64,000 nucleotides of DNA from Hydractinia symbiolongicarpus (taxonomy: Eukaryota; Cnidaria; Hydrozoa; Anthoathecata; Hydractiniidae), in NCBI RefSeq assembly GCF_029227915.1, contig NC_079875.1, positions 29,260,001-29,324,000 of the forward strand, given 5' to 3'. A model generated the notes under the pieces. It searched no databases. It had not been told where the DNA came from and saw only the letters and a list, made by a program, of their open reading frames with translations. Positions 44,875 through 64,000 of this stretch are shown here, in pieces. Position numbers and translations under genes: made by a program. Position 1 is the stretch's first letter, and the number at the start of each line of letters is the position of its first letter.

Positions 44875-45647
44875 AAAAGAGACAAATGTCTCATATATTT
44901 GCGATTCTTCGTGTTCGTACAAGATAATTGTCATTTTGCGATTCTTCGTGTTCGTACAAGATAATTGTCATTTAGGGTGGACAACCTCATCTCAGTTTCT
45001 ATATATTTTAGCCGTAAAATTGATAAACGACGCATTTAAAAGAGACTAATGTCTGATATACTTGCCAATTTTCGTACTGACACAAGATAATTGTCATTTA
45101 GGGACGACAATCTCGTCTCAGGTTCCATATTTGCGATTTTTCGTATTGATACAAGATAATTGTACCTTAGGGTGAACAACGGGTCAGTTTCTATATATTT
45201 TAGTTGTAAAATTGATGAACGAGGCATTTCAAAGTGACGAGTGTCATGTATTTGCGATTTTTCGTATTGATACAAGATAATTGTACCTTAGGGACGACAA
45301 GCTCGTCTCAGTTTCTATATATTTTAGCCGTAAAATTGATAAACGAGGCATTTAAAAGAGACAAATGTCTCATATATTTGCGATTTTTCGTATTGATACA
45401 GGAGAATTGTCACTTACGATCGACAACCTCGTCTCAGGTTCTATGTATTTTGGCCGTATAATTGATAAACGATGCATTTCAAAGTGACGAGTGTCATGTA
45501 CTTGCGATTTTTCGTATTGATACAAGATAATTGTCATTTGGGGTCGAGTACCTCGTCTCAGGTTCTATTTATTTTAGCCATAATATTGATAAACGAGGCA
45601 TTTCAAAGTGACATGTATTTGCGATTTTTCGTATTGATACAAGATAA
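44875..45647 (+). repeat. 124-bp satellite, proximal block
   Basis: About six monomers of the satellite described at 51737-64000, same orientation, ending in acaagataa (45639-45647), the left target duplication of the inserted element. Confidence 0.95.
45639..45647. repeat. 9-bp target duplication, left
   Basis: acaagataa; identical copy at 51737-51745. In intact monomers the sequence reads gatacaagataattgtca, the empty site. Confidence 0.92.
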
Positions 45648-45731
45648 CAACCTCGTTCCCAGGGCTTTTTGTCTCTCATCGGCGCTGCGCTTATTGATAG
45701 GTCTGACGAAAAAGGCCCTGGAGGAAGCTGG
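45648..45731 (+). repeat. Terminal inverted repeat, left
   Basis: Outer 17 bases caacctcgttcccaggg, then tgtctct, an unmatched GC-rich middle, and ggccctggaggaagctgg at the inner edge. Confidence 0.8.
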
Positions 45732-46348
45732 TTTTATTCCGAGCCGTGATTGGTCGAGAATTTCACCTAATTATGCGAAAGATAAAACGTCACTCGGTCC
45801 GTGAAATATTCACGCTGAAACTAACTGTAAACAATAAAGATGGCCGACACTGTGCATACATGTTTTGTATCAGAAAAAAATATTTGAAAAATACATTTTG
45901 GCAAGAAACTTTTATGGCTTCAATTAGTTTTAACTAGTTAACTCTCAGTCCAGATGTGCTTGTATGTAACTACATGCTACTTATGCTCAAATTAATATTA
46001 GCAACTGACCAAGAGATTGTCTAGAGCTAGCTAGTTATAAAACAAGAAGTGTAGACATATATATAGTTACAGATAGATAGCTACTAGTTATTTATTATTA
46101 TTATTACTACTGAACATCAGAATACAAAGTAAGCGCAGTTAGCTACATCAACGCAAAAACAGATAAAGGATTGGATGTATTTTCCATGCTAATTACACAG
46201 ATTTTACATATTGCAAGAATTCTGTTAACTCTTAAAATGGTAAGGGATTATATATAAGATAAAAACACAAAGCTATCTATACATTTATATATATACATCT
46301 ATATTGCTAAATATAAAAATTTTCTTTTTTTATTCAAGGTATAGAAGA
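45732..46348. promoter_or_regulatory. Leader of the DUF6589 gene
   Basis: Subterminal sequence without coding potential, between the left terminus and the ATG at 46349. A promoter must lie here if the gene is expressed, but no TATA box is distinguishable in the AT-rich DNA. A T-rich tract with 'attcaag' at 46322-46337 could be an acceptor of a leader intron. Confidence 0.3.
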
Positions 46349-49288
46349 ATGGCTAAGCCAGCTACTCCTAAGAAGATTTACTTTCGTAACACTTCCAATG
46401 ATGGAAATTTCTGCAGGTTATGTGCCAAATTAAAACAAAAATCTTTGTTTATAAAAATATTCAGCAATATTGGAAAAAACAAAAACATTGAGAACAAAAT
46501 AAGTCTAACATGTGGGTTAAGAACAACGGAACTGGATGCTCTTCCAACTGTTATATGTCAGTCTTGTGTCACCTTTGTCGAGAAAATGTCAGACTTTCGG
46601 AAAAATGTTTAACTGGATCAAATTCAGTTACGACAAAACGTGTCTGTCAAACGTGGCATATTGTCTCCGCATAACGAGAAAAATCAAACTATTGAAAGTG
46701 AGAAAAAGAACGAAAAAGGAAAATCTAGAAAGCAACTTAACTTTGCTGAAAACAAGGAGTTAACTGAAGTTCCTACCACACAACTGCAACCACGCAATAT
46801 TGTTTCTCCCGAAGACAATATACCAGCAATGCAAAAATTAAAACTGGAAACAGCGCTTAAATCCAATAATAATATGGTAGTAGCAAATACAATCATTAAC
46901 CACTGTCCAACTATATCTACATATTTGAAAAATAATTATATTAATAATTTGAAAAGTTCCTGTAAAAAACTTGCCACAAGAAAAAAACCATCAATTTTAC
47001 ACAAAAAAGGGTATGAAGAGATGCAAAATTTTAATATTGAAAAACTGTGGGCTGAGATCAAAGAAAATCATCCATTACTTGTTGATGTTCTTAGTGCTGT
47101 GTGTGGGCAAAAGGATATTGTACTTGAAACTAAAAACAAATTTTGTTTCATATATTCCATACTGATGCAAATGCGGTGGCATGAACTTAGTTTATATCAG
47201 AGAGTCAACACTGTTTTGATCATTGAGGGTCGATGCAGCAAAAAGGTAATATATAAGTCAGTAGATGTAAGATGTAAATAATGGGAAATGCTCTTGAGAT
47301 TTTAACTCCGACTAATAGAAAAAGTTTCTGTTCTTATTTTGCTTTTTATAGAAAGGTGAAAATTTATCCAAAAAATTCTAAATGTATATATATATATATT
47401 AAAACTTTTCATTAAAACATGTTTTTGGATATAAGTAAACATAACGAACAACTAAATTAAGCTATGTTGGGTACTTATATTCTAGTTACAAGAAAGATTC
47501 AACAAACTAGGAGTATGCCTGTCACACAAGATGAAAGGAAATCTGTTAAACTTGATTGGAAGCCACTATATGGAAAAGGCGATTGATTTAGTGAAAAACA
47601 ACACAACACTCAGAGGAAGCGGCGATAACTGGGATCTGAAAGTACTAGTGGAGACAAGAAAGGGTGTTGACAACAAAGATTACCATCTTTTTGCAACAAA
47701 TCTAATCGCAAACAGAATTCCTTTTGACCATCTTCCAAACAACCAGCCAATTGGAGATATTCGATATATGGACAGGAAGAAATTTGCTGTCAATATGGCA
47801 GAATGGGAATGTTACAGACAGACAACAAAGGTTCTGATTGGAAGAATTCTGGTTGAGTTTTTCCCAAAATTTAAATTTTTAAAAAAAGTAATCCCAGATC
47901 ATATTGACAACAGATTTAGTGACAAAATGTCCCAAAAGTCAACAATAATTTCAATGCCGATCATTGATGCAAATGAAGCAAGGTATGCAGATTGTGTCCT
48001 GCGAACATATGAGAAATGGATTGCAGAGATATACCAAAAGGCTGGTAAACTGACTGACATGCCAATTATCGACAATACACCATTACCTAAAAACACAGCT
48101 GAGCCAGGTCAATCATATTCTCATACTGTGTTTACCAACGAAGATCCAATGAAGGACATGAAAATAATGTTTAGTGGTGATCAGCTGACACGAGTCCGTT
48201 TCGCTGGTGCGAAATCCCTATTAGCTGAGAATCACACACCAACAGACCGGTTGGAGCATTGTTCCCCTTTCAAAGCTGCAATGTGGCACTGTAAGGCATC
48301 TTTACTTCAATATTCATTTGCTCTGCTTTACTCAGCAAACTCTGTCAACCAGATAGGAACACTGAAGTATTTCAGGAAGAAAATGAATAGAAGGAATTCA
48401 ACCCCAGGTAAAGTGTTAGACTCATACGAAGGTAGTGAAGATCTGTTTTTAAGTGTTGGTAGAGCATATGTTGTTGTAGCAGCAATGTCTTTTTTGGAGA
48501 TGGATACATTGGAAGATGAACCAAAAAGACATCCCTTTCCTAAAAATTTGGTGCATGCTAGCAAAGAGGTAAAAAAAGAATATTTTAACACTTTACTGGA
48601 TAATTTTGTCGATCAATTTGTTCTCCAAAAATCAATTGAAGATGGTGATCAAGTGAAAAATTACGGTCTGTGTATCATTTTCTTAACAGTCCTCATCCTT
48701 CAGATGAAAGATACAGCTAAAGAAGGAGATGGTGACAGAAACCTCATCAATCAAAAGCTTTTGTTGTCAATATTTCGATCACTTGGTGCATACAGTAAAT
48801 ATGCGATAGAGATGTTTGTAAGCATTGCACAAGTAGAATGCTTGTTGACACCTAGATTGTCTGAGGAGTTCAAATGGGGATACTTTTCAAATTGGAGAGG
48901 TGGAGCAGGGCAAAACATTGAAGATGATCTATCACAAGAAATCAGTAATCGTTTAGGAAAACACATCGTGCAAAGAATGGGAGCAAATAAAACAATAAAA
49001 TCCATTAGCAAAGTGTGCAAGGCTGCGAGCGGTGTAAAAGAAATCAAAGAAAATTATGATCAAAACCTAATTATTCATGATACATCGGTCCAACACTCTA
49101 AACGAGAGTCCATATCTGATGAAAAAGAGATGACAAACGACCTGCTTAATCTTCGCCCATTTAGCCACATTGTTGGAAGAGCTCATCAAAGTTTTCCTGA
49201 TATTAAACGTTCCCCACTACGTTACTTGAATATTGTAGAACATCAAAAATGGTTAGAAAAACATAAATTACAGCTATATGTTCCCTAG
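46349..49288 (+). CDS. ZAD-like finger + DUF6589 protein (transposase candidate)
   Basis: Two exons, 46349-47245 and 47486-49288, joined in phase 0 through GT (gtaata) and AG (ttctag); total 899 codons plus stop. The ATG at 46349 precedes a ZAD-like zinc site: FCRLCAK … CGLRTTE … VICQSC, about residues 15-80. A single in-frame TAA sits at codon 88 (46610-46612); the same frame continues at once. A charged linker follows. From about residue 330 is the DUF6589 domain: GSGDNWDLKVLV, NKDYHLFATNLIANRIPFDH, GRILVEFFPKFKFLKKVIPD, GDQLTRVRFAGAKSLLAE, RLEHCSPFKAAMWH and, near the end, WRGGAGQNIEDDLSQEISNR. Conserved acidic residues (D of GDQLT, others) could serve catalysis; that is inference. Convergent with the RecQ gene, 227 bases apart. 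Confidence 0.8.
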
Positions 49289-49515
49289 GATTTTATAAAG
49301 TAAGAATCTGTTATATCAAGGTGAGTTCCATAAACGTATATATATTATTTATGCTAACATTGACTGCTGATAATTCAAACCTCCAGAAAAAGTAGAACTT
49401 TTTTAAATTCTGTCTACTGAGTGCTTTTAATCTTACAAGTTTGTTTTATCAGAAGTGAATATTATATACTATATATTTTAAAGTTTGTTTATATATATTT
49501 ATATATATACCTAAA
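49289..49515. other. Convergent gene junction in the element
   Basis: Tail-to-tail spacer of 227 bases, very AT-rich with (ta)n runs, likely holding both polyadenylation sites. Confidence 0.5.
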
Positions 49516-51477
49516 TTATTTATGCTTTGGGGCATACTTATTTATTTTATCGTATATGGTGGTAGCATATTGATCATCCCAAACATCATATTCAAATAAC
49601 AGATCATTTTTAGATCTTATAAATGGAAGTTTACTCAATAGTGTTTGAACCAAATTTTTATTGATAGATGGAAGTTCATAAGTTTGATCAAGGGTAGTCA
49701 ATAGCGAAAGTCTCCAAGTTTCAATAATTTCTTTCAGCTCAGTTTGTAAGCATTTAAAAGCATCTTCTGATACTAAATCACGGCAAGGTAATGTTGTTTC
49801 TTTTATCAGCAAATTAGACTTTGTACAATTTGAGCAACAATTATCTTGTTCATATTTTTTAAAACCAAAGAAATTTAGAATAAATTTCCTTAAGCACAGA
49901 TCTGTTTTGCAGAAGCACTTCATGCTATCGTCAACATTATTTTTATTAACAGCAATATCTGCATTATTGTAATACAATGTTGCAGTTGAGTTTTGCCCAC
50001 GCCTTCCAGCTCTACCAATTTCTTGCATGTAAGATTCAATATTGGCTGGAGGCGTTATGTGGATAACTTCAGTAACCTTTGGTGCATTAACACCCATCCC
50101 GAGTGCTGTGGTTGCAAACACAACTCTAATAGACGAATCTTGTTTTGTAATTTCATCTAAGATTTCTTTCTTCATTCTAGATGTTTGAGGAGCATGAAAT
50201 TGACAAAATAGTTTTGTGTTATTTGGAGTTACTGTTTGCTGAAATAACGAATAAGCATAGCCACAATATTTTAGCTTCATGTAAATGATTGTCATGGGAT
50301 AATCATCCCGTAATTTATTTAACTCTTTAGCAATGGGAACTAAAATATCGTCATAGCTTCTTAAGCCAAAGTTGTTTCCGCGTCTTGGCAATTTCTTTAA
50401 AAATATATTTTTTCTATTTGGATTTGCAACAACAACCTTACAATAAGGACTGAAACATAGTTTCTCTTTTAAATTTTTTATTTTGCTTGGGGGTGCTGTT
50501 GCTGTCAAAGCAATCATGGGTGTGCTTGGAAAAAGAGCTTTCAGTGTGCATAATTTTCCAAAATCTTCACGAAATTCAGCACCCCTAAAACATATAAATG
50601 GAGTGTTTTTTTTAAAATTTTGTATAGCTAATATATTAGCAATTTATTATATTATGTACCAACAGATATATATTATCAACTTGTCAAAAGATATGTTCGT
50701 TTATATTAGTTTCATTATATATTTTCATATATATATTACATATAGCTATATATATATAACAGATTTTTATACTGTATATATTCAGTTTTGTTAAATATTT
50801 CATATGATATGTGCTATATACATACCTACAGTACTTTATTATTATTTTATAAAATGAATTTTAAAAACCACCAAAGTTTTTTTATAATTTTATAATCTAT
50901 ATTCTTGAATAGCCAGCTAGAGCTAGTTTACTTACCACATTTCAACACAATGCGCTTCATCAACCACGCAAGCTACCACATTTTGTTGATAAATTTTGCT
51001 CTTTAAAATTGAACGCCCTTGATCAGATAAAAAGGATTCTGGATGGGCAAATAAAATCTTAATATCTCCGTTTTTAATACCACAATCAATTGTAATATTT
51101 GTACCATCATGGTCGTCCTCCACTGCATCATTACTTCCAAACAAGCTCTCATCTGCCTCAAACTTCCTCTGTTCCAAGTTCAATACAGCAGCAGAAAAAC
51201 CAATCCCATTCAAGTATTTCACCTGATCATTTATAATGGAAGTTAAAGGGCTGATGACCAAAACAATATTCTTTTCATTTTTAACTGGGAAGAGATCAGC
51301 AAGTAAATGAAAAATAATTGATTTTCCACATCCAGTAGGCAGAACTGCCACCACATCATTCCCCTTTAACAAAGCTTCCAAACATATGACTTGCTTTGGT
51401 TTCAGGCAAAACTGAAAAATGTAATTATTTAATGCGAAAGATATTCGCTTTAAAATATCAATATACGTTAGAGCCAT
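49516..51477 (-). CDS. RecQ-type DNA helicase of the element
   Basis: Two minus-strand exons, 51477-50936 and 50584-49516, joined between G-TG and GGGT (…HCVEM-W-GAEF…) through a gtaagt donor and a ttttag acceptor; 536 codons plus stop, no break. Motifs in order: LKPKQ (motif 0), AVLPTGCGKSIIFHLLADLF (Walker A), SPLTSIINDQV (Ia), VVDEAHCVEMW (Walker B, DEAH), MIALTATAP (III), FATTALGMGVNAP (V), QEIGRAGRRGQ (VI with arginine finger), then a Cys cluster (MKCFCKTDLCLRKFI; CCSNC) like the RecQ zinc-binding part. No HRDC domain. It would unwind DNA in the 3'-5' direction using ATP. The ATG at 51475-51477 is preferred over the GTG just before it. Its tight place between the inverted repeats argues it works with the DUF6589 protein. 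Confidence 0.9.
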
Positions 51478-51660
51478 CACGACCTAAAGCCTTCAAGGTC
51501 CAGTCTTCACTAAAAAGTTCTATTTCCATCGATCACGATAAAATCCAGACCCTAATAATTAAATTGAAACTCGCTTACCAAAGACTAGGAAGTATAAAAT
51601 TCCTGATAAACGAGACACGAGTGCATTAATTAAAAATCTGCGAAAATCAAAGATTTTTGA
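51478..51660. promoter_or_regulatory. Leader of the RecQ gene
   Basis: Short non-coding stretch between the RecQ start and the right terminus; any promoter for the minus-strand gene lies here. Not distinguishable by eye. Confidence 0.3.
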
Positions 51661-51736
51661 CCAGCCTCCACCAGGGCCATGTTCGTCTCGCCGTCCGATA
51701 TCCAAAAAGAGACAACTTGTCCTGGGATCGAGGTTG
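51661..51736 (-). repeat. Terminal inverted repeat, right
   Basis: Read from the outside: caacctcgatcccagg, then gttgtctct, an unmatched middle and catggccctggtggaggctgg. Confidence 0.8.
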
Positions 51737-54700
51737 ACAAGATAATTGTCATTTAGGGTCAACAACTTCGTCTCAGGTTCCATATATTTTAGCCTTAAAA
51801 TTGATAAACGAGGCATTTAAAAGAGACAAATGTCTCATATATTTGCGACTTTTTGTATTGATACAAGATAATTATCACTTAGGGTCAACAACCTCGTCTC
51901 AGGTTCTATGTATTTTAGGCGTATAATTGATAAACGATGCATTTCAAAGTGACGAGTGTCATGTACTTGCGATTTTTCGTATTGATACAAGATAATTGTC
52001 ATTTAGGGTCGAGTACATCGTCTCAGGTTCTATATATTTTAGTCGTAAAATTGATAAACGAGGCATTTAAAAAAGACAAATGTCTCATATATTCTTCGTA
52101 TTGATACAGGATAATTGTACCTTAGGGCGAACAACGGGTCAGTTTCTATATATTTTAGTTGTAAAATTGATAAACGAGGCATTTCAAAGTGACGAGTGTC
52201 ATGTACTTGCTATTTTACGTATTGATACAAGATAATTGTCATTTAGGGTCGACAACCTCGTCCCAGTTTCTATGTATTTTAGCCGTAAAATTGATAAACG
52301 GGGCATTTCAAAGTGACCAGTGCCATGTATTAGCGATTTTTCGTATTGATACAGGACAATTGTCACTTAGGATCGACAACCTCGTCTCAGGTTCTATGTA
52401 TTTTGGCCGTATAATTGATAAACGATGCAATTCAAAGTGACGAGTGTCATGTACTTGCGATTTTTCGTATTGATACAAGATAAGTGTCATTTGGGGTCGA
52501 GTACCTCGTCTCACGTTCTATGTATTTTAGGCGTATAATTGATAAAAGATGCATTTCAAAGTGACGAGTGTCATGTACTCGCGATTTTTCGTATTGATAC
52601 AAGATAATTGTCATTTAGGGTCGAGTACATCGTCTCAGGTTCTATATATTTTAGTCGTAAAATTGATAAACGAGGCATTTAAAAAAGACAAATGTCTCAT
52701 ATATTCTTCGTGTTGACAAGATAATTGTCATTTCGGGTCAACAACGTCTCAGGTTCTATATATTTTAGTCGTAAAATTGCTAAACGAGGCATTTCGAAGT
52801 GACATGTATTTGTGATTTTTCGTATTGATACAAGATAATTGTCATTTAGGGTCAACAACCTCGTCTCAGGTTCTATATATTTTAGCCTTAAAATTGATAA
52901 ACAAGGCATTTAAAAGAGACAAATGTCTCATATAATTGCGATTCTTCGTGTTGATACAAGATAATTGTTATTTAGGGACGACAATCTCGTCTCAGGTTCC
53001 AAATATTATAGTTCTAAAATTGATAAACGATGCATTTCAAAGTGACGAGTGTCATGTACTTGCGACTTTTTGTATTGATACAAGATAATTATCACTTAGG
53101 GTCAACAACCTCGTCTCAGGTTCTATGTATTTTAGGCGTATAAATGATAAACGATGCATTTCAAAGTGACGAGTGTCATGTACTTGCGATTTTTCGTATT
53201 GATACAAGATAACTGTAATTTAGGGTCGAGTACATTGTCTCAGGTTCTATATATTTTAGTCGTAAAATTGATAAATGAGGCATTTAAAAAAGACAAATGT
53301 CTCATATATTCTTCGTATTGATACAAGATAATTGTACCTTAGGGTGAACAACGGGTCAGTTTCTATATATTTTAGTTGTAAAATTGATAAACGACGCATT
53401 TCAAAGTGACGAGTGTCATGTACTTGCTATTTTTCGTATTGATACAAGATAATTGTCATTTAGGGTCGACAACCTCGTCCCAGTTTCTATGTATTTTAGC
53501 CGTAAAATTGATAAACGGGGCATTTCAAAGTGACCAGTGCCATGTATTAGCGATTTTTCGTATTGATACAGGACAATTGTCACTTAGGATTGACAACCTC
53601 GTCTCAGGTTCTATGTATTTTGGCCGTATAATTGATAAACGATGCATTTCAAAGTGACGAGTGTCATGTACTTGCGACCTTTCGTATTGATACAAGATAA
53701 TTGTCATTTAGGGTCGAGTACATCGTCTCAGGTTCTATATATTTTAGTCGTAAAATTGATAAACGAGGCATTTAAAAAAGACAAATGTCTCATATATTCT
53801 TCGTGTTGACAAGATAATTGTCATTTCGGGTCAACAACGTCTCAGGTTCTATATATTTTAGTCGTAAAATTGCTAAACGAGGCATTTCGAAGTGACATGT
53901 ATTTGTGATTTTTCGTATTGATACAAGATAATTGTCATTTAGAGTCAACAACCTCGTCTCAGGTTCTATATATTTTAGCCTTAAAATTGATAAACAAGGC
54001 ATTGTAAAGAGACAAATGTCTCATATAATTGCGATTCTTCGTGTTGATACAAGATAATTGTCATTTAGGGACGACAATCTCGTCTCAGGTTCCAAATATT
54101 ATAGTTCTAAAATTGATAAACGATGCATTTCAAAGTGACGAGTGTCATGTACTTGCGACTTTTTGTATTGATACAAGATAATTATCACTTAGGGTCCACA
54201 ACCTCGTCTCAGGTTCTATGTATTTTAGGCGTATAAATGATAAACGATGCATTTCAAAGTGACGAGTGTCATGTACTTGCGATTTTTCGTATTGATACAA
54301 GATAATTGTAATTTAGGGTCGAGTACATCGTCTCAGGTTCTATATATTTTAGTCGTAAAATTGATAAATGAGGCATTTAAAAAAGACAAATGTCTCATAT
54401 ATTCTTCGTATTGATACAAGATAATTGTACCTTAGGGTGAACAACGGGTCAGTTTCTATATATTTTAGTTGTAAAATTGATAAACGACGCATTTCAAAGT
54501 GACGAGTGTCATGTACTTGCTATTTTTCGTATTGATACAAGATAATTGTCATTTAGGGTCGAGTACCTCGTCTCAGGTTCTGTATATTTTAGCCGTAAAA
54601 CTGATAAACGAGGCATTTCAAAGTGATGAGTGTTATATATTTGCCCTTTTTCGTATTGATACAGGATCATTGTCACTTAGGGTTGACAACCTCGTCTGAG

Positions 54701-57700
54701 GTTCTATATAATTTAGCCGTAAAATTGATAAACGAGGCATTTCAAAATGACGAGTGTCACGTACTTGCGATTTTTCGCATTGATACAGGATAATTGTCAC
54801 TTAAGGTCGACAACCTCGTCTCAGGTTCTATGTATTTTAGCGGTAAAATTGATAAACGAGGGATTCAAAAGAGATAGATGTCTCATATATTTGCGATTCT
54901 TTGTCGTGATACAAGATAAATGTCATTTGGGGTCTACAACGTCTCAGGTTCTGTATATTTTACTCGTAAAATTAATAAACGAGGCATTTCATAGTGACAT
55001 GTATTTGGGATTTTTCGTATTGATACATGATAATTGTCATTTAGGGTCAACAACCTCGTCTCAGGTTCTATATATTTTAGCCTTAAAATTGATAAACAAG
55101 ACATTTAAAAGAGACAAATGTTTCATATATTTGCGATTCTTCGTGTTGATACAAGATAATTGTCATTTAGGGACGGCAACCTCGTCTCAGGTGCCATTTA
55201 CTTTAGTCGTAAAATTGATAAACGAGGCATTTAAAAGAGACAAATGTCTGATATATTTGCGATTTTTCGTATTGATACAAGATAATTTTCATTTAGGGAT
55301 GACAATCTCGTCTCAGGTTCCATATATTTTAGTTGTAAAATTGATAAACGAGGCATTTCAAAGTGACGAGTGTCATGTATTTGCGATTTTTCGTATTGAT
55401 ACAAGATAATTGTACCTTAGGGACGACAAGCTCGTCTCAGTTTCTATATATTTTAGCCGTAAAATTAATAAACGAGGCATTTAAAAGAGACAAATGTCTC
55501 ATATATTTGCGATTCTTCGTGTTCGTACAAGATAATTGTCATTTTGCGATTCTTCGTGTTCGTACAAGATAATTGTCATTTAGGGTGGACAACCTCATCT
55601 CAGTTTCTATATATTTTAGCCGTAAAATTGATAAACGACGCATTTAAAAGAGACAAATGTCTGATATACTTGCCAATTTTCGTACTGACACAAGATAATT
55701 GTCATTTAGGGACGACAATCTCGTCTCAGGTTCCATATTTGCGATTTTTCGTATTGATACAAGATAATTGTACCTTAGGGTGAACAACGGGTCAGTTTCT
55801 ATATATTGTAGTTGTAAAATTGATAAACGAGGCATTTCAAAGTGACGAGTGTCATGTACTTGCTATTTTTCGTATTGATACAAGATAATTGTCATTTAGG
55901 GTCGACAACCTCGTCCCAGTTTCTATGTATTTTAGCCGTAAAATTGATAAACGGGGCATTTCAAAGTGACCAGTGCCATGTATTAGCGATTTTTCGTATT
56001 GATACAGGACAATTGTCACTTAGGATCGACAACCTCGTCTCAGGTTCTATGTATTTTAGGCGTATAATTGATAAAAGATGCATTTCAAAGTGACGAGTGT
56101 CATGTACTCGCGATTTTTCGTATTGATACAAGATAATTGTCATTTAGGGTCGAGTACATCGTCTCAGGTTCTATATATTTTAGTCGTAAAATTGATAAAC
56201 GAGGCATTTAAAAAAGACAAATGTCTCATATATTCTTCGTGTTGACAAGATAATTGTCATTTCGGGTCAACAACGTCTCAGGTTCTATATATTTTAGTCG
56301 TAAAATTGCTAAACGAGGCATTTCGAAGTGACATGTATTTGTGATTTTTCGTATTGATACAAGATAATTGTCATTTAGGGTCAACAACCTCGTCTCAGGT
56401 TCTATATATTTTAGCCTTAAAATTGATAAACAAGGCATTTAAAAGAGACAAATGTCTCATATAATTGCGATTCTTCGTGTTGATACAAGATAATTGTTAT
56501 TTAGGGACGACAATCTCGTCTCAGGTTCCAAATATTATAGTTCTAAAATTGATGAACGATGCATTTCAAAGTGACGAGTGTCATGTACTTGCGACTTTTT
56601 GTATTGATACAAGATAATTATCACTTAGGGTCAACAACCTCGTCTCAGGTTCTATGTATTTTAGGCGTATAAATGATAAACGATGCATTTCAAAGTGACG
56701 AGTGTCATGTACTTGCGATTTTTCGTATTGATACAAGATAACTGTAATTTAGGGTCGAGTACATCGTCTCAGGTTCTATATATTTTAGTCGTAAAATTGA
56801 TAAATGAGGCATTTAAAAAAGACAAATGTCTCATATATTCTTCGTATTGATACAAGATAATTGTACCTTAGGGTGAACAACGGGTCAGTTTCTATATATT
56901 TTAGTTGCAACATTGATAAACGACGCATTTCAAAGTGACGAGTGTCATGTACTTGCTATTTTTCGTATTGATACAAGATAATTGTCATTTAGGGTCGACA
57001 ACCTCGTCCCAGTTTCTATGTATTTTAGCCGTAAAATTGATAAACGGGGCATTTCAAAGTGACCAGTGCCATGTATTAGCGATTTTTCGTATTGATACAG
57101 GACAATTGTCACTTAGGATTGACAACCTCGTCTCAGGTTCTATGTATTTTGGCCGTATAATTGATAAACGATGCATTTCAAAGTGACGAGTGTCATGTAC
57201 TTGCGACCTTTCGTATTGATACAAGATAATTGTCATTTAGGGTCGAGTACATCGTCTCAGGTTCTATATATTTTAGTCGTAAAATTGATAAACGAGGCAT
57301 TTAAAAAAGACAAATGTCTCATATATTCTTCGTGTTGACAAGATAATTGTCATTTCGGGTCAACAACGTCTCAGGTTCTATATATTTTAGTCGTAAAATT
57401 GCTAAACGAGGCATTTCGAAGTGACATGTATTTGTGATTTTTCGTATTGATACAAGATAATTGTCATTTAGAGTCAACAACCTCGTCTCAGGTTCTATAT
57501 ATTTTAGCCTTAAAATTGATAAACAAGGCATTTAAAAGAGACAAATGTCTCATATAATTGCGATTCTTCGTGTTGATACAAGATAATTGTCATTTAGGGA
57601 CGACAATCTCGTCTCAGGTTCCAAATATTATAGTTCTAAAATTGATAAACGATGCATTTCAAAGTGACGAGTGTCATGTACTTGCGACTTTTTGTATTGA

Positions 57701-60700
57701 TACAAGATAATTATCACTTAGGGTCCACAACCTCGTCTCAGGTTCTATGTATTTTAGGCGTATAAATGATAAACGATGCATTTCAAAGTGACAAGTGTCA
57801 TGTACTTGCGATTTTTCGTATTGATACAAGATAATTGTAATTTAGGGTCGAGTACATCGTCTCAGGTTCTATATATTTTAGTCGTAAAATTGATAAATGA
57901 GGCATTTAAAAAAGACAAATGTCTCATATATTCTTCGTATTGATACAAGATAATTGTACCTTAGGGTGAACAACGGGTCAGTTTCTATATATTTTAGTTG
58001 TAAAATTGATAAACGACGCATTTCAAAGTGACGAGTGTCATGTACTTGCTATTTTTCGTATTGATACAAGATAATTGTCATTTAGGGTCGAGTACCTCGT
58101 CTCAGGTTCTGTATATTTTAGCCGTAAAACTGATAAACGAGGCATTTCAAAGTGATGAGTGTTATATATTTGCCCTTTTTCGTATTGATACAGGATCATT
58201 GTCACTTAGGGTTGACAACCTCGTCTGAGGTTCTATATAATTTAGCCGTAAAATTGATAAACGAGGCATTTCAAAATGACGAGTGTCACGTACTTGCGAT
58301 TTTTCGCATTGATACAGGATAATTGTCACTTAAGGTCGACAACCTCGTCTCAGGTTCTATGTATTTTAGCGGTAAAATTGATAAACGAGGGATTCAAAAG
58401 AGATAGATGTCTCATATATTTGCGATTCTTTGTCGTGATACAAGATAAATGTCATTTGGGGTCAACAACGTCTCAGGTTCTGTATATTTTACTCGTAAAA
58501 TTGATAAACGAGGCATTTCATAGTGACATGTATTTGCGATTTTTCGTATTGATACAAGATAATTGTCATTTAGGGTCAACAACCTCGTCTCAGGTTCTAT
58601 ATATTTTAGCCTTAAAATTGATAAACAAGACATTTAAAAGAGACAAATGTTTCATATATTTGCGATTCTTCGTGTTGATACAAGATAATTGTCATTTAGG
58701 GACGGCAACCTCGTCTCAGGTGCCATTTACTTTAGTCGTAAAATTGATAAACGAGGCATTTCAAAGTGACGAGTGTCATGTATTTGCGATTTTTCGTATT
58801 GATACAAGATAATTGTACCTTAGGGACGACAAGCTCGTCTCAGTTTCTATATATTTTAGCCGTAAAATTAATAAACGAGGCATTTAAAAGAGACAAATGT
58901 CTCATATATTTGCGATTCTTCGTGTTCGTACAAGATAATTGTCATTTTGCGATTCTTCGTGTTCGTACAAGATAATTGTCATTTAGGGTGGACAACCTCA
59001 TCTCAGTTTCTATATATTTTAGCCGTAAAATTGATAAACGACGCATTTAAAAGAGACAAATGTCTGATATACTTGCCAATTTTCGTACTGACACAAGATA
59101 ATTGTCATTTAGGGACGACAATCTCGTCTCAGGTTCCATATTTGCGATTTTTCGTATTGATACAAGATAATTGTACCTTAGGGTGAACAACGGGTCAGTT
59201 TCTATATATTGTAGTTGTAAAATTGATAAACGAGGCATTTCAAAGTGACGAGTGTCATGTACTTGCTATTTTTCGTATTGATACAAGATAATTGTCATTT
59301 AGGGTCGACAACCTCGTCCCAGTTTCTATGTATTTTAGCCGTAAAATTGATAAACGGGGCATTTCAAAGTGACCAGTGCCATGTATTAGCGATTTTTCGT
59401 ATTGATACAGGACAATTGTCACTTAGGATCGACAACCTCGTCTCAGGTTCTATGTATTTTGGCCTTATAATTGATAAACGATGCATTTCAAAGTGACGAG
59501 TGTCATGTACTTGCGATTTTTCGTATTGATACAAGATAATTGTCATTTGGGGTCGAGTACCTCGTCTCAGGTTCTATTTATTTTAGCCATAATATTGATA
59601 AACGAGGCATTTAAAAGAGACAAATGTCTCACATATTTCCGATTCTTCGTGTTGATACAAGATAAATGTCATTTGGGGTCAAGAACGTCTCAGGTTCTAT
59701 ATATTTTTGCCTTAAAATTGATAAACGATGCATTTTAAAGTGACGAGTGTCATGTACTTGCGACTTTTTGTATTGATACAAGATAATTATCACTTAGGGT
59801 CAACAACCTCGTCTCAGGTTCTATGTATTTTAGGCGTATAATTCATAAACGATGCATTTCAAAGTGACGAGTGTCATGTACTTGCGATTTTTCGTATTGA
59901 AACAAGATAATTGTCACTTAGGGTCGAGTACATCGTCTCAGGTTCTATATATTTTAGTCGTAAAATTGCTAAACGAGGCATTTCAAAGTGACATGTATTT
60001 GCGATTTTTCGTATTGATACAAGATAATTGTCATTTAGGGTCAACAACCTCGTCTCAGGTTCTATATATTTTAGTCGTAAAATTGATAAACGAGGCATTT
60101 AAAAAAGACAAATGTCTCATATATTCTTCGTATTGATACAAGATAATTGTACCTTAGAGTGAACAACGGGTCAGTTTCTATATATTTTAGTTGTAAAATT
60201 GATAAACGAGGCATTTCAAAGTGACGAGTGTCATGTACTTGCTATTTTTCGTATTGATACAAGATAATTGTCATTTAGGGTCGACAACCTCGTCCCAGTT
60301 TCTACGTATTTTAGCCGTAAAATTGATAAACGGGGCATTTCAAAGTGACCAGTGCCATGTATTAGCGATTTTTCGTATTGATACAGGACAATTGTCACTT
60401 GTGATCGACAACCTCGTCTCAGGTTCTATGTATTTTGGCCGTATAATTGATAAACGATGCATTTCAAAGTGACGAGTGTCATGTACTCGCGATTTTTCGT
60501 ATTGATACAAGATAATTGTCATTTAGGGTCGAGTACATCGTCTCAGGTTCTATATATTTTAGTCGTAAAATTGATAAACGAGGCATTTAAAAAAGAGAAA
60601 TGTCTCATATATTCTTCGTGTTGACAAGATAATTGTCATTTGGGGTCAACAACGTCTCAGGTTCTATATATTTTACTCGTAAAATTGATAAACGAGGCAT

Positions 60701-63700
60701 TTCAAAGTGACCAGTGCCATGTATTAGCGATTTTTCGTATTGATACAGGACAATTGTCACTTAGGATCGACAACCTCGTCTCAGGTTCTATGTATTTTGG
60801 CCGTATAATTGATAAACGATGCATTTCAAAGTGACGAGTGTCATGTACTTGCGATTTCTCGTATTGATACAAGATAATTGTACCTTAGGGACGACAAGCT
60901 CGTCTCAGTTTCTATATATTTTAGCCGTAAAATTGATAAACGAGGCATTTAAAAGAGACAAATGTCTCATATATTTGCGATTCTTCGTGTTCGTACAAGA
61001 TAATTGTCATTTTGCGATTCTTCGTGTTCGTACAAGATAATTGTCATTTAGGGTGGACAACCTCATCTCAGTTTCTATATATTTTAGCCGTAAAATTGAT
61101 AAACGACGCATTTAAAAGAGACAAATGTCTGATATACTTGCCAATTTTCGTACTGACACAAGATAATTGTCATTTAGGGACGACAATCTCGTCTCAGGTT
61201 CCATATTTGCGATTTTTCGTATTGATACAAGATAATTGTACCTTAGGGTGAACAACGGGTCAGTTTCTATATATTGTAGTTGTAAAATTGATAAACGAGG
61301 CATTTCAAAGTGACGAGTGTCATGTACTTGCTATTTTTCGTATTGATACAAGATAATTGTCATTTAGGGTCGACAACCTCGTCCCAGTTTCTATGTATTT
61401 TAGCCGTAAAATTGATAAACGGGGCATTTCAAAGTGACCAGTGCCATGTATTAGCGATTTTTCGTATTGATACAGGACAATTGTCACTTAGGATCGACAA
61501 CCTCGTCTCAGGTTCTATGTATTTTGGCCGTATAATTGATAAACGATGCATTTCAAAGTGACGAGTGTCATGTACTTGCGATTTTTCGTATTGATACAAG
61601 ATAATTGTCATTTGGGGTCGAGTACCTCGTCTCAGGTTCTATTTATTTTAGCCATAATATTGATAAACGAGGCATTTAAAAGAGACAAATGTCTCACATA
61701 TTTCCGATTCTTCGTGTTGATACAAGATAAATGTCATTTGGGGTCAAGAACGTCTCAGGTTCTATATATTTTTGCCTTAAAATTGATAAACGATGCATTT
61801 CAAAGTGACGAGTGTCATGTACTTGCGACTTTTTGTATTGATACAAGATAATTATCACTTAGGGTCAACAACCTGGTCTCAGGTTCTATATATTTTAGTC
61901 GTAAAATTGATAAACGAGGCATTTCAGAGTGACATGTATTTGCGATTTTTCGTATTGATACAAGATAATTGTCATTTAGGGTCAACAACCTTGTCTCAGG
62001 TTCTATATATTTTAGTCGTAAAATTGATAAACGAGGCATTTAAAAAAGACAAATGTCTCATATATTCTTCGTATTGATACAAGATAATTGTACCTTAGGG
62101 TGAACAACGGGTCAGTTTCTATATATTTTAGTTGTAAAATTGATAAACGAGGCATTTCAAAGTGACGAGTGTCATGTACTCGCGATTTTTCGTATTGATA
62201 CAAGATAATTGTCATTTAGGGTCGAGTACATCGTCTCAGGTTCTATATATTTTAGTCGTAAAATTGATAAACGAGGCATTTAAAAAAGAGAAATGTCTCA
62301 TATATTCTTCGTGTTGACAAGATAATTGTCATTTGGGGTCAACAACGTCTCAGGTTCTATATATTTTACTCGTAAAATTGATAAACGAGGCATTTCAAAG
62401 TGACCAGTGCCATGTATTAGCGATTTTTCGTATTGATACAGGACAATTGTCACTTAGGATCGACAACCTCGTCTCAGGTTCTATGTATTTTGGCCGTATA
62501 ATTGATAAACGATGCATTTCAAAGTGACGAGTGTCATGTACTTGCGATTTTTCGTATTGATACAAGATAATTGTACCTTAGGGACGACAAGCTCGTCTCA
62601 GTTTCTATATATTTTAGCCGTAAAATTGATAAACGAGGCATTTAAAAGAGACAAATGTCTCATATATTTGCGATTCTTCGTGTTCGTACAAGATAATTGT
62701 CATTTTGCGATTCTTCGTGTTCGTACAAGATAATTGTCATTTAGGGTGGACAACCTCATCTCAGTTTCTATATATTTTAGCCGTAAAATTGATAAACGAC
62801 GCATTTAAAAGAGACAAATGTCTGATATACTTGCCAATTTTCGTACTGACACAAGATAATTGTCATTTAGGGACGACAATCTCGTCTCAGGTTCCATATT
62901 TGCGATTTTTCGTATTGATACAAGATAATTGTACCTTAGGGTGAACAACGGGTCAGTTTCTATATATTGTAGTTGTAAAATTGATAAACGAGGCATTTCA
63001 AAGTGACGAGTGTCATGTACTTGCTATTTTTCGTATTGATACAAGATAATTGTCATTTAGGGTCGACAACCTCGTCCCAGTTTCTATGTATTTTAGCCGT
63101 AAAATTGATAAACGGGGCATTTCAAAGTGACCAGTGCCATGTATTAGCGATTTTTCGTATTGATACAGGACAATTGTCACTTAGGATCGACAACCTCGTC
63201 TCAGGTTCTATGTATTTTGGCCGTATAATTGATAAACGATGCATTTCAAAGTGACGAGTGTCATGTACTTGCGATTTTTCGTATTGATACAAGATAATTG
63301 TCATTTGGGGTCGAGTACCTCGTCTCAGGTTCTATTTATTTTAGCAATAATATTGATAAACGAGGCATTTAAAAGAGACAAATGTCTCACATATTTCCGA
63401 TTCTTCGTGTTGATACAAGATAAATGTCATTTGGGGTCAAGAACGTCTCAGGTTCTATATATTTTTGCCTTGAAATTGATAAACGATGCATTTCAAAGTG
63501 ACGAGTGTCATGTACTTGCGACTTTTTGTATTGATACAAGATAATTATCACTTAGGGTCAACAACCTCGTCTCAGGTTCTATATATTTTAGTCGTAAAAT
63601 TGATAAACGAGGCATTTCAGAGTGACATGTATTTGCGATTTTTCGTATTGATACAAGATAATTGTCATTTAGGGTCAACAACCTCGTCTCAGGTTCTATA

Positions 63701-64000
63701 TATTTTAGTCGTAAAATTGATAAACGAGGCATTTAAAAAAGACAAATGTCTCATATATTCTTCGTATTGATACAAGATAATTGTACCTTAGGGTGAACAA
63801 CGGGTCAGTTTCTATATATTTTAGTTGTAAAATTGATAAACGAGGCATTTCAAAGTGACGAGTGTCATGTACTTGCTATTTTTCGTATTGATACAAGATA
63901 ATTGTCATTTAGGGTCGACAACCTCGTCCCAGTTTCTACGTATTTTAGCCGTAAAATTGATAAACGGGGCATTTCAAAGTGACCAGTGCCATGTATTAGC
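51737..64000 (+). repeat. 124-bp satellite array with higher-order repeats
   Basis: About 100 head-to-tail monomers, 116-126 bp, mean near 121, running off the window end. Typical words per monomer: tttttcgtattgatacaaga, taattgtcatttagggtc, acctcgtctcaggttctata, tattttagccgtaaaattga, taaacgaggcattt. Two main variants end 'caaagtgacgagtgtcatg' or 'aaaagagacaaatgtctcat'. Longer repeats are layered on top: blocks at offset 1,093 bp (53406/54499, 56935/58028), 3,529 bp (53406-54900 versus 56935-58430) and 1,693 bp (60819-62070 versus 62512-63770). Open frames on both strands are by-products: monomers near 42 codons stay open. No transcription signal was seen. Confidence 0.95.

Follow-up and report, generated by a model that had tools for sequence, protein, structure and literature searches.

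The stretch of DNA analysed here, 64,000 nucleotides of the Hydractinia symbiolongicarpus genome (NC_079875.1, positions 29,260,001 to 29,324,000, hereafter the window), carries a mobile element of 6,089 bp at 45648..51736 on the forward strand. By comparison with published descriptions, it is regarded as a recently active AcademH DNA transposon, with a probability of roughly 0.93. The element is bounded by terminal inverted repeats of 29 bp (45648..45676, forward strand, and 51708..51736, reverse strand), identical to each other at 24 of 29 positions. The target-site duplication acaagataa is present in the window sequence on its left (45639..45647) and on its right (51737..51745). The 16-base terminal motif CAACCTCGWTCCCAGG, with up to two mismatches allowed, occurs in the whole window only at the two element ends, against a chance expectation of 0.01. 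Additionally, a subterminal motif, GGCCCTGG, lies at 45714..45721 on the forward strand and recurs in inverted form at position 59 from the 3' end; in the subfamily L029 it stands at position 61 at both ends. The insertion context is a 124-bp tandem satellite (window positions 44898-45647 and 51737-63995). When the element and one duplicate are removed, the joined flanks agree with a different monomer of the satellite at 101 of 103 bases. A preliminary description made from the sequence alone had reported the 6,089-bp unit, its inverted ends, acaagataa on both sides and a monomer restored on removal, all of which are borne out.

The element holds a convergent pair of genes, each interrupted by a single intron, as the same description had stated. 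The transposase gene lies on the forward strand, and its first exon (46349..47245) encodes a zf-AD zinc finger (Pfam, E 4.6e-9). A GT...AG intron (47246..47485) is followed by a second exon (47486..49288) that matches DUF6589 (PF20231, E 1.7e-35). The splice sites are identical in all eight full-length copies. An in-frame premature stop codon at 46610..46612 in exon 1, which the preliminary description overlooked, is private to the window copy, none of the seven other full-length copies having a stop at this codon; the transposase gene of the window copy is therefore defective. Its exon 2 is also 6 bp shorter than in six of those seven.

Exon 2 is predicted by a structure model to form an RNase H-like DDE core with a helical insertion. 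A comparison of this kind had been suggested at the outset, and the predicted DUF6589 structure indeed resembles the P element, Hermes, RAG1 and Transib transposases. The likeness of the predicted fold to hAT, P element and Transib/RAG1 transposases extends to the core and its large helical insertion. At the level of sequence they differ, as neither the DUF6589 protein sequence nor a profile built on it matched any PDB chain up to E 10. The candidate catalytic residues of exon 2 would be D47, D232 and E485 (or E479). DUF6589 is probably the DDE-type Academ transposase. Named relatives of DUF6589 come from cnidarians, molluscs, a priapulid and a brachiopod; none from fungi appears among the names found, and no search was aimed at fungi.

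The second gene, on the reverse strand, encodes a RecQ-type helicase. Its exon 1 (50936..51477) contains a Pfam DEAD domain with GCGKS and DEAH motifs, its intron spans 50585..50935, and its exon 2 (49516..50584) contains Helicase_C, together with a match to the RecQ zinc-binding domain that falls under its cut-off. The frame is open in the window copy and encodes 536 amino acids. Scanned apart against TIGR00614, the RecQ family, the two exons give E values of 1.2e-37 and 3.7e-21, with scores of 129.8 and 75.5 bits, each alone short of the 219.8 bits that the model requires of a whole protein. Among the eight full-length copies, the helicase frame is open in seven, the transposase frame in four and both in three; in one of these three (L014) the helicase splice donor reads GC instead of GT.

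Copies in the genome and recent movement

The published assembly of H. symbiolongicarpus comprises 15 chromosomes and 483 Mb, as given in a passage of PMC10411563. A query of 171 bases from the 5' end of the element returned 491 candidates; scores were computed for 40 of them, and every one of these 40 matched. The sample described below consists of 21 loci, namely the window copy and the next 20 by score among those 40, so that 19 lower-scored and 451 unscored candidates lie outside it. Both ends and exact duplications are present at 15 of the 21 loci; the duplication measures 9 bp at 13 of these and 10 bp at the other 2, and its sequence varies; when flanks were deliberately mispaired, agreement was seen in 0 of 208 cases. 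The search for further copies by their ends and the tabulation of duplications, both proposed beforehand, thus yielded 14 other copies with the same ends and exact 9- or 10-bp duplications. In the older copies L025 and L027 the duplication is imperfect (2 mismatches in 9 and 3 in 10, respectively), and in L028 the 3' end has decayed. No 3' end was found within the fetched stretch for L015, L022 and L026.

The full-length copies are 99.4-99.9% identical, from which recent movement of the family follows. Shorter copies with internal deletions retain the same ends and exact duplications; L011, L016 and L019 lack parts of one or both genes and are flanked by exact 9-bp duplications. Such copies were either mobilised in trans or lost sequence once inserted.

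One further copy, L009 (C1:30981800-30988400), lies 1.7 Mb from the window copy and shares its satellite phase and its duplication. In ungapped comparison, the flanks of the two agree at 113/113 positions on the left and 323/391 on the right. The two copies have, however, only 2 sites exclusive to them together, against 17 and 20 private sites. They are counted as one insertion that was copied with the satellite array, the alternative being independent insertions at a reused target site. Counted in this way, the sample contains at least 14 independent insertions.

The satellite itself contains CAACCTCGTCTCAGG, which resembles the element end CAACCTCGTTCCCAGG. In shuffle tests, 24 and 68 of 5,000 shuffled monomers (one figure for each end) scored equally on the forward strand, and 1,155 and 3,746 of 5,000 did so on the reverse strand. 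The likeness, noticed post hoc, is suggestive of a satellite that may derive from an AcademH-like end, or it may be due to chance, and no claim is built on it. Genome-wide, DUF6589 has at least 101 matches, with exons and fragments counted. On C5, matches at 26536994, 26546029 and 26555062 are spaced by about 9,034 bp, and a pair at 27905703 and 27913359 stands 7,656 bp apart; this regular spacing is a possible sign of tandem amplification of whole elements.

Related lineages and classification

A convergent RecQ-type gene accompanies DUF6589 in four of the five lineages examined (the window element, L029, L030 and L032). In L029, the transposase is 62% identical to that of the window element, the duplication is of 9 bp (acgtaaggc) and the ends measure 77 bp. 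The transposase of L030 is 53% identical, and of its helicase only the Helicase_C exon was identified; in the deeper lineage L032, only the DEAD exon was recognised by Pfam. Element ends were looked for in L030 and L032 and none were found. This linkage lends weight to the earlier suggestion that RecQ is a dedicated partner.

The fifth lineage, L031, has a nuclease-like domain in place of the RecQ-type gene. Its three copies (L031, L033 and L034) all have matching flanks of 3 bp, although those of L034 are set in TA-rich sequence, and a match of 5 bp fits there as well. The copies are very young (99.7% identical), with inverted arms of about 358 bp. The nuclease-like fold was recognised on the model of P0162, a relative 45% identical to L031, and not on L031 itself. 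In fold comparison, the C-terminal domain of this model resembles the EXO1/FEN1/XPG nucleases, and its N-terminal half is barely covered by the comparison rows. Foldseek matches of the P0162 model are weak (Transib, E 0.086; FEN-1, E 0.15). Pfam does not recognise the nuclease-like domain, and a search with the profile of the nuclease-bearing lineage returned one ribosomal protein only (E 0.11).

AcademH was reportedly described by Kojima in 2020 (Mob DNA 11:15), in a paper whose title reports it from animals and fungi. A RecQ helicase in Academ was already mentioned in 2013, according to a passage of PMC3627910. As stated in passages of PMC10045372, AcademH elements generate duplications of 9 or 10 bp and AcademX elements duplications of 3 or 4 bp, a difference tied there to the presence of a helicase or a nuclease. 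Both published patterns are found in two DUF6589 lineages of one genome, so the window element is assigned to AcademH and L031 is a probable AcademX. Like AcademH, the window element combines inverted ends and 9- or 10-bp duplications (15 of 21 loci) with a helicase of the RecQ family beside the transposase. The transposase is identified by its DDE-like fold and by the DUF6589 domain common to the nuclease-bearing sister lineage. No XPG or other nuclease was matched by Pfam among five translations covering both genes. This no-nuclease result is weakened by the failure of Pfam to see the nuclease-like domain in the sister lineage too, but both genes are fully explained by non-nuclease domains. 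Leaving aside the zf-AD finger and where the introns lie, no feature was found that distinguishes the window element from AcademH. It shares DUF6589 with the likely AcademX member of the same genome and differs from AcademX, which has a nuclease, no helicase and, in L031, L033 and L034, 3-bp matching flanks, by its helicase and 9-bp duplications. The early lead to Academ-like elements as relatives was correct, and the element type is already known, which takes away the novelty left open at the outset. Moreover, the proposal that DUF6589 is the transposase gains from the fold match, the exact duplications and its occurrence in two mobile lineages.

A new superfamily apart from Academ, which acquired its RecQ helicase independently, is very improbable. 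Pfam lists no function for DUF6589, and the word is absent from the literature searched, as such a superfamily might lead one to expect, but the helicase and the 9/10-bp duplications reproduce the published AcademH pattern exactly, and the DUF6589 sister lineage, with its nuclease-like domain and matching flanks of 3 bp, corresponds to published AcademX. That absence does not prove the link between DUF6589 and the Academ transposase unpublished; the equation of the two may be unstated in the literature searched. Membership in another helicase-bearing group, Kolobok with RecQ or Helitron, is scarcely credible. Kolobok elements target TTAA, and none of the 15 duplications of 9/10 bp, varied in sequence, is TTAA; KolobokH was rejected on this count. 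Helitrons have neither inverted ends nor target duplications and are excluded because the element has both. KolobokH does resemble the window element in pairing a DDE transposase with a RecQ helicase, placed on the complementary strand in one red-alga Kolobok as it is here, but it belongs to a different superfamily and, according to passages of PMC9587614, is reported only from fungi. Duplications of hAT and P elements measure 8 bp; both were rejected in view of the 9/10-bp duplications and because Pfam matched none of the five translations to a hAT or P profile. We know of no helicase partner for hAT, P element or Transib/RAG1 transposases.

Mechanism and meaning

Under the AcademH assignment, the DUF6589 transposase would cut at the terminal inverted repeats and join the ends to target DNA, where cuts staggered by 9, sometimes 10, bp would produce the duplications. 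The zf-AD finger probably aids DNA binding or multimer formation. The RecQ helicase, on this reading a dedicated accessory, probably acts by unwinding an intermediate, whether at the element ends, in the donor gap or at the target. We infer this helicase step, and the route may be cut-and-paste rather than copying. That DUF6589 drives the element and the helicase merely travels along as a passenger, taking no part in transposition, is unlikely. The exact 9-bp duplications of the gene-deleted copies would agree with a passenger, be it through movement in trans or later loss. Nevertheless, the gene pair recurs in most DUF6589 lineages examined, and among full-length copies the helicase stays open more often than the transposase, the altered splice donor notwithstanding.

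These results offer a probable function, that of Academ transposase, and candidate catalytic residues for DUF6589, a Pfam family without one. A link of duplication length to the partner enzyme is already published (passages of PMC10045372). It is doubtful that the distance between the two target cuts is fixed by the accessory enzyme instead of by the core of the transposase; if it were, DUF6589 with a RecQ helicase would give staggers of 9-10 bp, and DUF6589 with a FEN1-like nuclease staggers of 3 bp. Young sister lineages of the helicase type and the nuclease type coexist in Hydractinia, which is experimentally tractable, and the basis of duplication length is thus testable there.
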